A DNA stretch of 64,000 nucleotides, from contig NZ_AP014510.1 in assembly GCF_000828675.1 (NCBI RefSeq), positions 372,001 through 436,000 on the forward strand, written 5' to 3'. The notes beneath the pieces are model-generated. The model saw only the letters and a program-made list of their open reading frames with translations. It was not told where the DNA came from and did no database searches. Source of the stretch: Thermotoga profunda AZM34c06 (GTDB lineage: Bacteria > Thermotogota > Thermotogae > Thermotogales > DSM-5069). Positions 22,658 through 39,507 of the stretch are shown one piece after another. Made by a program: the position numbers and the translations under genes. Positions within the stretch are counted from its first letter, which is position 1, and every line of letters starts with the position of its first letter.

Positions 22658-23362
22658 ATGCCGAAGCACTCCAAAAGATATGAGGAAATAAGGAAGAAGA
22701 TCGATAGAGCACGATTTTATAAGATTGACGAGGCTCTTGATTTGGTGAAACAAACTGCTACAGCGAAATTCGATGAAACTATAGAATTACACATGTCAAC
22801 TAACATAGACACAAAGAGACCTGAACAGCAAGTTCGTAGTACTGTCGTTCTTCCACATGGAACAGGTAAAACTGTTAGGGTATTAGTTTTCGCAAAAGGC
22901 GATAAGGCAGAGGAAGCAAAAAAAGCAGGAGCGGATTTCGTCGGTGGCGATGAGTTGGTTGAAAAGATAACTAATGAGAATTTCACCGATTTTGATATTG
23001 CAATAGCGACACCGGATATGATGAAATCAATAGGTAAACTTGGAAAAATTCTCGGTCCCCGTGGTTTGATGCCATCCCCAAAATCAGGTACGGTGACTGA
23101 TGATGTTGAGTCAGCAGTCAGAGAGTTCAAGATGGGTAGAGTAGAAGTTCGAAGTGATAAGACAGGTTGTTTGCATGTTCCAATTGGAAAGCGGTCTTTC
23201 GATGTTTCAAAATTGAAGGAAAATTTGATTTCCGCTTATAAACAGATAATGGCATTGAGACCAGCAGGGGTCAAAGGACAGTTCATAAAAAAGGTTGTTG
23301 TAACTTCTACGATGGGAGTTGGAATAAAGGTCGATCAGGCAGATCTTGAATCGGCACAGTAA
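22658..23362 (+). CDS. rplA: Ribosomal protein uL1
   Basis: 234 residues. Forms the mobile L1 stalk at the E site and, in many bacteria, represses its own operon through a site before rplK. Family regions: [10 protein letters not shown]-like VELHM block, [24 protein letters not shown] and [30 protein letters not shown] precedes ATG 22658, 20 nt after rplK. Confidence 0.98.
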
Positions 23363-23482
23363 AGATAAAGTGAATAGCCGAAGAAAGTAGGTTTTCAGAA
23401 GAGGTACTCCCCGCCTACCGAGGCAAGATTGTGGATTACGCTTTTTGGCGTGGGGTCTCTTCTTGATTAAGAGACCTTTTTT
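23363..23482 (+). promoter_or_regulatory. L10-leader-type mRNA region with terminator-like hairpin before rplJ
   Basis: About 140 nt separate rplA from rplJ. The segment contains GTAGG...CCTAC and other pairing arms, then a strong hairpin GGTCTCTT (23454-23461) / AAGAGACC (23469-23476) followed by TTTTTT (23477-23482), just before the rplJ Shine-Dalgarno site. In many bacteria this interval binds the L10-(L12)n complex and lowers rplJL expression, in Gram-positives by attenuation. The U-run points to transcription attenuation or partial termination here, which would also reduce rpoBC readthrough. The class follows from position and fold only. Confidence 0.65.
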
Positions 23483-23503
23483 ATTGTGAAAGGAGGTGCG
23501 AAG

Positions 23504-37033: not shown

Positions 37034-37062
37034 TTGACAGATTTGATTTGTCATAGTATGAT
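37034..37062 (+). promoter_or_regulatory. Promoter of the amino-acid transporter leader
   Basis: TTGACA (37034-37039), 17-nt spacer, TATGAT (37057-37062). A perfect -35 and one-mismatch -10. Transcription would start near 37068, giving a leader of about 200 nt before the binding-protein gene. Confidence 0.8.
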
Positions 37063-37067
37063 TATGC

Positions 37068-37251
37068 AAACAAGTTGAAAGGTGGCTTAGTGGTGATTGG
37101 TTTTTGCTGTTGGCTCCAACCTTCAATAGTTGAAATAAAGCATCATGCGAAGTACAGCCCGGTTGATCCCCGGGTGGTACTTCGTTAGGTGCCACCTGAT
37201 AGGGTAAAAGTAACAAAAAACCGGGCTGTGAAAAAACAGCCCGGTTTTTTT
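37068..37251 (+). promoter_or_regulatory. Structured leader with switchable terminator, candidate riboswitch
   Basis: A closing stem AGGTGGC (37080-37086) / GCCACCT (37191-37197) encloses about 105 nt. Inside is a long hairpin CGAAGTAC (37148-37155) / GTACTTCG (37177-37184), extended by CCCGG (37158-37162) / CCGGG (37170-37174). Then comes a strong terminator: CCGGGCTGT (37221-37229) / ACAGCCCGG (37236-37244) and a T-run (37245-37251). The same 9-mer ACAGCCCGG also lies at 37154-37162, so the terminator 5' arm can pair either with it (antiterminator) or with its own 3' arm. Folding of the upstream hairpin would block the antiterminator and favour stop. I cannot match the core to lysine, SAM, glycine, T-box or other common classes. 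It controls the downstream amino-acid ABC transporter. Confidence 0.75.
37090..37188 (+). other. Possible 32-codon leader peptide reading frame
   Basis: GTG 37090 (or 37093) opens a 32-codon frame that stops at TAG 37186-37188 and crosses both the aptamer-like hairpin and the early antiterminator arm. GAAAGGTGG (37077-37085) could serve as Shine-Dalgarno site. The frame has adjacent Cys-Cys-Trp codons at 37105-37113 and His-His at 37141-37146. It could be a leader peptide sensed by stalling, or a chance open frame inside a structured RNA. Confidence 0.22.
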
Positions 37252-37271
37252 ATTATACGGAGGTGATTTAG

Positions 37272-38027
37272 GTGAAAAGATTTTTGGTGGTGATGATTTT
37301 AGTTGTAGCAACACTGAGTTTTGCTTCACTGATCGAGGATATTCAGAAAAGAGGCGTTTTGAGAATTGGACAAGACGAGGGTTACATGCCGTTGTATGGT
37401 ACAGACGAAAAAGGAGAGCGTGTCGGGCTTGAAATTGAGTTGATCAACAAGATGGCAGAGATTCTTGGTGTAAAAGTAGAGTTCGTCATTGTCAATTGGG
37501 ACGGTATCATACCGGCTCTTATCTCTGGAAAATTCGACATGATCTTTTCTGGTATGACGATCACACCCGAACGCGCTCTAAAGGTGAATTTCTCGATACC
37601 ATATTTAACTGTCGGACAGGCTATATTATATAACAAAGCCACATTCAAGACTCCACCAACTTATGAGGAACTCTCTCAAAGGCAATTGACTATAGCTGTT
37701 CAACTTGGTACTACAGGTGAATTCACTGCAAGAAGGATGTTTCCAAAAGCCAAGATATTGACTTTTTCAACTATGGATGAAGCGGCTTTTCAGGTGGTTT
37801 CAAAGCGAGCAGATATCATGGTGAATGATTCAATTTATGTAAAGTTTTTAACGCAAAAATACGATACTCTCGGTATGGTTCAAGAATTGCTGAGTCTCGA
37901 AGATCTGGGGATTGCGATTAGAAAAGGAGATCTTGAAACTCTCAGATGGCTTGATACGTTCATTCAGTGGGCCAAGACGACTGGTTTGATCGATGAACTC
38001 TACAAAAAGTGGCTGACTGGTGAATGA
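37272..38027 (+). CDS. Amino-acid ABC transporter, substrate-binding protein
   Basis: 251 residues with an N-terminal signal peptide (about 1-19, hydrophobic core then SFAS). It is a periplasmic type II binding protein of the polar amino-acid family: RGVLRIGQDEGYMPL, GLEIELINKMAEILGVKVE, NWDGIIPALISGKFDMIFSGMTITPER, and VQLGTTGEFTA. GTG 37272 follows CGGAGGTGATT. The ligand cannot be read out; neither basic amino acids, glutamine nor cystine is excluded. It is first in the binding protein-permease-ATPase operon and is preceded by the switchable leader. Confidence 0.9.
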   Translation: MKRFLVVMILVVATLSFASLIEDIQKRGVLRIGQDEGYMPLYGTDEKGERVGLEIELINKMAEILGVKVEFVIVNWDGIIPALISGKFDMIFSGMTITPERALKVNFSIPYLTVGQAILYNKATFKTPPTYEELSQRQLTIAVQLGTTGEFTARRMFPKAKILTFSTMDEAAFQVVSKRADIMVNDSIYVKFLTQKYDTLGMVQELLSLEDLGIAIRKGDLETLRWLDTFIQWAKTTGLIDELYKKWLTGE

Positions 38028-38059: not shown

Positions 38060-38779
38060 ATGAAAAAAGTCTATGCGATATTTCTTACAGTATTGGTTTT
38101 GGTGGTATTGTATTTTTCTATAGCTCAAGTTTATCCATTCAACTGGTTAATTGTATTGAAATATCGCACGGTATTTTTGAAGGGGTTACTCACAACGATG
38201 AATTTGAGCGGTTTCTCGTTGCTCATTTCATTTGCAATTGGTATTGTCTTTGCCTTGATGAGAAGATCTTCGGGGATTTTCAGAGAGTTTGCCGTGCTGT
38301 ATATCTTCTTTTTCAGAAATACTCCATTACTTGTCGTGATACTCCTGACTTATTATGGTCTTGGAAGTATTTTACCCTTTGATAGGTTTTGGGCCGCAGT
38401 CTTGGGTTTGTCAGCTTTTGAAGGTGCATACCTTGCCGAGATAATCCGTTCTGGTCTTGATGCAGTGGACAAGGGGGAATTAGAGGCGGGCTTTTCCTTG
38501 GGTTTGACGAATTTTGAGGTGTTTTTGTACATTCACTTCCCTCAGGCCATCAGGATCTCTTTACCTGCACTAATAGGACAATCGATAAGCCTTGTAAAGG
38601 ATAGCTCTTTGGCGTCAGTCATAGCATTAGCTGAGTTAACTATGACTGGTAGACAGGTTGGAACACAGACGTTGGCGTCTTTTGAAAGTTATTTGACCAT
38701 AGCTGTTTTCTATGTTGCTGTTACAAGTGTCCTCTCTGTTCTGGGGAATTGGTTAGAAAGGAGGCTCGCCATACCATGA
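38060..38779 (+). CDS. Amino-acid ABC transporter permease
   Basis: 239 residues, about five to six transmembrane helices. HisM/GlnP family: FLKGLLTTMNLSGFSLLISFAIG, FFRNTPLLVVI, and the EAA loop GLDAVDKGELEAGFSLGLTNFEVFLYIHFPQAIR. The frame is open upstream, but ATG 38060 has TTGGAGGTG at the right distance. The stop overlaps the ATPase start (ATGA). A single permease gene implies a homodimer. Confidence 0.93.
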   Translation: MKKVYAIFLTVLVLVVLYFSIAQVYPFNWLIVLKYRTVFLKGLLTTMNLSGFSLLISFAIGIVFALMRRSSGIFREFAVLYIFFFRNTPLLVVILLTYYGLGSILPFDRFWAAVLGLSAFEGAYLAEIIRSGLDAVDKGELEAGFSLGLTNFEVFLYIHFPQAIRISLPALIGQSISLVKDSSLASVIALAELTMTGRQVGTQTLASFESYLTIAVFYVAVTSVLSVLGNWLERRLAIP

Positions 38780-39507
38780 GTTTGTTGCAAGTAGTTGATG
38801 TTCACAAAAGATACGGGAAAACTGAGGTTTTAAGAGGGATTTCTTTCGAAGTTAGTCAGGGGGAGATAGTTGTCATAATGGGGCCATCTGGTGCTGGTAA
38901 ATCAACATTACTTAGAACGATAAACTATTTAGTGAAGCCAGATAAGGGTGAGATATTTTTTAAAGGTCAAAGGATTACTGATGATCAATCAATCTTGAGA
39001 CAAATAAGATCGCAGATTGGTTTTGTCTTTCAACATTTCAATCTTTTCAGCCATATGACAGCCTTAGAGAATGTCATGCTTGGTCTGACGAAGGTCAAAA
39101 AGTTTTCTAAAGACAAGGCATACCAAGTAGCGAGAGAATGCCTTGAAGTCGTTGGTTTGACTGGAAAGGCTCAAAGTTATCCTTCTCAACTCTCTGGAGG
39201 CCAAAAACAAAGGGTGGCAATCGCGCGTGCACTCGCAATGAAACCAGATCTCATACTCTTTGATGAGCCCACATCGGCACTCGATCCCACATTAGTTGGA
39301 GAAGTTCACCAAGTGATGAAAAAACTTGCAAATCAAGGTCACACAATGGTGGTAGTAACACACGAAGTGAATTTTGCAAAAAGTGTGGCTTCCAGGATAT
39401 TGTACATGGAAAACGGTATCATCGTCGAAGATTCGGATCCAATTAGTTTTTTCACACAACCAATGTCTCAGAATGCAAAAAATTTTATAGCAACCGTTTA
39501 TTCTTGA
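38776..39507 (+). CDS. Amino-acid ABC transporter ATP-binding protein
   Basis: 243 residues. Complete ABC ATPase: Walker A GPSGAGKST (about 37-45), Q-loop VFQHFNLF, signature LSGGQKQRVAIARAL, Walker B LILFDEPTSALDP and switch His in VVTHE. GlnQ/HisP subfamily. It starts with ATG 38776 overlapping the permease stop. Its last 23 nt overlap tail to tail with the minus-strand gene ending at 39485. Confidence 0.95.
   Translation: MSLLQVVDVHKRYGKTEVLRGISFEVSQGEIVVIMGPSGAGKSTLLRTINYLVKPDKGEIFFKGQRITDDQSILRQIRSQIGFVFQHFNLFSHMTALENVMLGLTKVKKFSKDKAYQVARECLEVVGLTGKAQSYPSQLSGGQKQRVAIARALAMKPDLILFDEPTSALDPTLVGEVHQVMKKLANQGHTMVVVTHEVNFAKSVASRILYMENGIIVEDSDPISFFTQPMSQNAKNFIATVYS

Follow-up and report, generated by a model that had tools for sequence, protein, structure and literature searches.

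The leader analysed here lies on the forward strand of a 64,000-nucleotide stretch of the genome of Thermotoga profunda AZM34c06 (hereafter the window, with positions counted from its first letter) and precedes an operon that, as the original prediction had it, encodes an amino-acid ABC transporter. The operon comprises genes for a periplasmic substrate-binding protein of family 3 and basic/polar amino-acid type (37272-38027; PF00497 at 1.1e-36; best NCBIfam match TIGR01096 for Lys/Arg/Orn, below its cut-off), an amino-acid ABC permease (38060-38779) and a GlnQ/HisP-like amino-acid ABC ATPase (38749-39507), with the transporter gene's ribosome-binding site, GGAGGTGA, at 37259-37266. Upstream, a promoter-like site (TTGACA-17 nt-TATGAT, 37034-37062, 11 of 12 matches to the consensus) and an intrinsic terminator (37215-37250, dG about -25 kcal/mol) were both found as proposed. 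The duplicated 9-mer is equally real: ACAGCCCGG occurs exactly at both 37154-37162 and 37236-37244, and 37221-37229 is the complement of either copy. The fold of the leader is much more stable than that of shuffled sequences (z -7.3). The terminator is almost perfectly symmetric, and the minus strand would read as a terminator too; elsewhere in the window, a ribosomal protein L10 leader (RF00557, 49.4 bits, 23360-23491) is an ordinary known element.

The leader DNA matched three other genomes of the genus, and the leader was recovered, as anticipated for homologous transporters, ahead of the orthologous transporter in all four comparable Pseudothermotoga species, in an alignment that spans promoter to transporter start, brings the promoter hexamers into register and keeps the terminator. 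No Rfam covariance model matched the leader at gathering score and a relaxed score returned only chance-level terminator matches, none of them convincing, in agreement with the earlier statement that the leader resembles none of the lysine, SAM, glycine, TPP, cobalamin, purine, THF, fluoride, guanidine or c-di-GMP cores; the T-box model (RF00230) was unmatched in the leader even at the relaxed threshold. Two other families of the same class, f2 and f11, carry orthologous transporters of 57-67% identity. A lysine riboswitch (RF00168, 98-106 bits) stands ahead of six of the f2 copies but was not found in the window leader or in any of the four genus members. Judging from this regulation and from its protein family, the transporter very probably serves lysine or basic amino acids in general.

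Within the leader, the inner hairpin predicted at 37148-37184 was found as P3 (strand 1:2; 37147-37185, arms 37147-37155/37177-37185 and 37157-37162/37170-37175, dG -24 kcal/mol), which would represent the OFF state. The switch strand at 37153-37164 can instead act as the 5' strand of an antiterminator and pair with 37219-37230, which overlaps the terminator 5' arm. An alternative hairpin that had escaped the original prediction, P4 (strand 2:3; 37173-37196, arms 37173-37180/37189-37196), would belong to the ON state; it excludes P3, and its stability across the four species ranges from dG -8.0 to -13.7 kcal/mol. Covariation was counted in four sequences only, three of them close, and amounts to two-sided changes at six pairs of P3 (98% of cells paired), at two pairs of the antiterminator (12 of 12 pairs in 4/4 species) and at two pairs of P4 (94% of cells paired), which persists in 4/4 species, with mostly different bases in the most distant one. 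P3 and the antiterminator are mutually exclusive, yet both covary, and the on/off logic originally proposed, in which one strand is contested between the inner hairpin and the 5' arm of the terminator, is supported.

The interpretation of this switch as riboswitch-like fared less well. In a riboswitch reading, a closed multi-stem domain at 37080-37197 would bind a basic amino acid and stabilise P3, leading to termination, and the open frame that runs through the domain would be accidental. The fold is very stable, equilibrium folding switches without a ribosome, the f2 ortholog of the transporter is under a lysine riboswitch, and helix P1 (AGGTGGC/GCCACCT, 37080-37086/37191-37197) is present at the predicted place and retained in three of the four species. 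P1 forms only 5 of 7 pairs in the most distant species, however, and P2 is not conserved (19 of 19 pairs in the window; 15, 12 and 8 of 19 in the three relatives). Of P1 and the inner hairpin, in both of which covariation was sought, it was obtained for the latter, and P1 is only partly kept. The leader therefore shows no conserved aptamer fold with a conserved unpaired core: the unpaired bases kept in the proposed aptamer are mostly ATAAAGCA, i.e., Lys-His codons, and leader ORFs with K/H runs occupy the same place in another family. We dropped P2/P1 as an aptamer because the fold is not conserved among the four species, and a new riboswitch at this locus appears unlikely. Conservation is instead seen in a short ORF whose Lys/His codons keep a constant spacing to the switch strand, in another family as well.

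This ORF, like P4 absent from the original prediction, starts with GTG and comprises 32 codons (37090-37188, peptide VVIGFCCWLQPSIVEIKHHAKYSPVDPRVVLR up to the stop codon). Its ribosome-binding site, AAAGGTGG at 37078-37085, doubles as the 5' arm of the weak helix P1 and has AAAAGGGTGG, AAAGGTGG and GATAGGAG as counterparts in the relatives, where the frame is open as well. In 4/4 species, an ORF of 32-36 codons crosses P3 in the same frame and has a start codon preceded by a ribosome-binding site. The putative control codons AAG CAT CAT (Lys17-His18-His19, 37138-37146) lie 5-7 codons ahead of the switch-strand CCG, and across the species the codons directly 5' of P3 are ATA AAG CAT/CAC CAT/TAC (Ile-Lys-His-His/Tyr), giving peptides that read IKHHAKYSPV, IKHHTRYGPV, IKHHAKYSPV and IKHYNRGSPV. 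Relative to the other species the window ORF carries a 1-nt deletion after SPVDP, so the C-terminus of its leader peptide differs. Shuffled leaders produce an ORF of at least 26 codons preceded by a Shine-Dalgarno sequence in 5-8% of cases, and an RNAcode-like substitution test within the genus gave p 0.07-0.15 against the distant species, which by itself is no proof of coding; the case for coding consequently rests on a wider comparison. Single-protein and profile searches also gave near matches to the leader peptide beyond the genus (L009, L063, L064 and others); these resembled chance hits or fell inside long genes and were discarded. A literature text search with the peptide motif returned only unrelated papers.

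The f11 orthologs of the transporter supply this comparison, with leader ORFs at the same distance that read SKKHVKRCC, IKKHVKRCC, KLHHHRLRR, ALHHHKLWR and MPHHRLWR, as well as KKHVKG. Counting codons back from the switch-strand proline, K, H or R fills 46 of 65 codons at positions -8 to -4 in the 13 transporter leaders and 36 of 333 elsewhere, and His occurs 25 times within this interval, never outside it, and at codon -6 in 13/13; the 13 leaders form three related clusters, and the interval was picked by eye after looking, so the p-value computed for this enrichment should be taken as indicative only. The control codons of the window are few, two tandem His and one Lys, and KHH in the window as well as KKH or HHH in the relatives stand before a transporter with a predicted basic-amino-acid-type substrate. 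From this placement of codons across two families we infer that the ORF is translated. Translation would also be at the heart of an arrest peptide like TnaC or SpeFL, in which the nascent chain senses a free metabolite and stalls the ribosome near PV..PG or the stop codon. The recurrence of PV and PG/GG in three of the four genus members and in f11 would suit such a mechanism, as would the antiterminator strand being left free by a ribosome on the last codons. Yet PV and GG are a consequence of RNA pairing (CCCGGT and the hairpin 3' arm), the residues not so imposed vary while the basic codons at -8 to -4 stay constant, and the C-terminus of the window peptide is altered by the deletion, all of which makes an arrest peptide quite unlikely.

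Instead, the leader is very likely a ribosome-mediated transcription attenuator that senses charged tRNA-His and/or tRNA-Lys, as far as can be told from sequence, with histidine the likeliest sensed amino acid and lysine the second. The RNA would start near 37070 and a ribosome would enter the leader ORF at 37090. With charged His and Lys tRNAs at hand, the ribosome would pass the control codons and leave, P3 and then the terminator would form and the operon would be off. With uncharged tRNAs, the ribosome would wait with its A site on Lys17, His18 or His19 and its front edge over the lower 5' arm of P3; strand 2 would then pair downstream as P4, the upper strand at 37153-37164 would be available to the terminator 5' arm, and the antiterminator so formed would let RNA polymerase read through into the transporter. 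Stalling would thus be the signal and starvation the state in which the transporter is expressed.

Folding with a masked ribosome footprint (14 nt upstream and 15 nt downstream of the P site) is consistent with parts of this scheme. When the A site holds His18 or His19 of the window leader and the terminator arm has yet to be transcribed, P4 reaches 0.89 or 0.95, P3 drops to 0.11 or 0.07, and the antiterminator strand is free (1.00). A ribosome at codon 20 or beyond covers the antiterminator strand of the window leader, so the range of effective stall positions is narrow. Placing Lys17 in the A site leaves P3 intact in the window at the early stage, which makes histidine the better-placed signal there; in PG001, Lys17 switches too, at the later stage. 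Stalling on KHH destabilises P3 less distinctly in the relatives than it does in the window. Ribosome-free equilibrium folding favours the antiterminator in three of the four species before the terminator 3' arm appears, so the OFF state would need P3 to be kinetically trapped. A masked ribosome parked on the stop codon exposes the antiterminator strand too and would favour readthrough, similar to the basal readthrough that has been considered at the trp attenuator (PMC1183508).

The type of control is most likely a variant of a known mechanism for which we found no earlier report in this phylum or for a lysine regulon. Proteobacteria, Actinobacteria and some Firmicutes have been described as controlling amino-acid genes by leader-peptide attenuation. 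With the his and trp attenuators of enterobacteria (RF00514 His_leader and RF00513 Trp_leader) the leader shares an ORF with cognate codons, exclusive hairpins, an intrinsic terminator and biosynthesis or uptake genes downstream. Unlike them, it has mixed His/Lys control codons, a transporter gene and a Thermotogota host, its sequence matches neither model, and its antiterminator uses strand 1, inside the ORF just past the control codons, alongside a 2:3 hairpin. T-box leaders (RF00230) also respond to amino-acid starvation via tRNA and choose between terminator and antiterminator, but an ORF with control codons here takes the place of their specifier loop. The lysine riboswitch (RF00168) controls lysine genes and precedes the orthologous transporter in six f2 genomes, but this leader differs from it in sequence, fold and sensing principle. 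Histidine attenuators predicted in Firmicutes similarly place a leader peptide, with 3-5 His codons, before attenuator/terminator structures and control the his operon or a his transporter (PMC9413887); they are from another phylum and of other sequence, and Thermotogota are unmentioned in that work. Attenuator motifs have been suggested to originate in gamma-proteobacteria, and most Thermotogales have lysine riboswitches (PMC3766115), which were found at the lysine operon of all surveyed Thermotogae (PMC5584792). We found no report of leader-peptide attenuators in Thermotogota in the open-licence literature, an absence that is weak evidence.

A covariance model of P3 and terminator was derived from the window leader and used to scan 103 genomes of the class. 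It returned the window leader, its three orthologs and then a series of weaker full-length matches; most of those inspected consist of a leader ORF with a run of a single codon followed by a switch hairpin and terminator. Leaders of dapH in the window's genome and family read KNAKKCNRPV, followed by GG, and variants thereof, and dapA leaders read IIKKTKHNCP and IIIIKKRNRPP. The segment that follows the control codons pairs with the terminator 5' arm in nearly all listed leaders, a check from which L124 was left out because its terminator had been split wrongly by the automatic procedure. The runs of codons ahead of dap, trp, his, asn and aspartokinase genes would go unexplained if the leader were constitutive or controlled by an RNA-binding protein on P3, with an ORF that arose by chance. 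The upper stem of P3 is invariant within the genus, as such a protein site might be, but this invariance follows from the sharing of its strand with the antiterminator and terminator, and we regard this explanation as very unlikely.

The leader is best read as a His/Lys leader-peptide attenuator that is one member of a Thermotogota set. It seems reasonably likely that this set is broad and unreported, covering Lys, His, Trp, Asn and Met, and that in Pseudothermotoga such attenuators have replaced the lysine riboswitch, at the basic-amino-acid transporter as well as at genes for lysine biosynthesis, and include a lysine-codon attenuator, of which we found no described example. In one family the orthologous transporter has a lysine riboswitch, whereas in two others it has a putative leader-peptide attenuator, which makes a clean natural example of one principle of RNA control taking the place of another. 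It would also imply that transcription and translation are coupled tightly enough for attenuation in thermophiles.

Several of the individual leaders are worth describing. In the window's own genome, though outside the window (contig 1, 157596-157794, minus strand), L099 combines the leader ORF MVKDLVEQISIQMKNAKKCNRPVVTQGGVHAL, ending in a stop codon, with a terminator and an antiterminator ahead of dapH, the gene for tetrahydrodipicolinate N-acetyltransferase, and is likely a lysine-codon attenuator; its orthologs are L100, L101, L103, L104, L105, L121, L122 and L128. The matches L120 and L123 (both R1) and L113 have no leader ORF and were set aside as plain terminator matches. The dapA leaders L102 and L109 contain IIKKTKHNCPLF and IIIIKKRNRPPV, respectively, in the same switch layout as the window leader. 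Five or six Asn codons (NNNNN/NNNNNN) stand ahead of asparagine synthetase A-like genes in L107, L119 and L127, a WWW leader ORF precedes trpD in L106 and a ferredoxin-like gene in L112, and an HHH leader precedes a hisZ-like gene in L114. Finally, L118 is a Met-rich leader, NVNMMIMCGMWKN (MMIMCGM), ahead of an aspartokinase gene.
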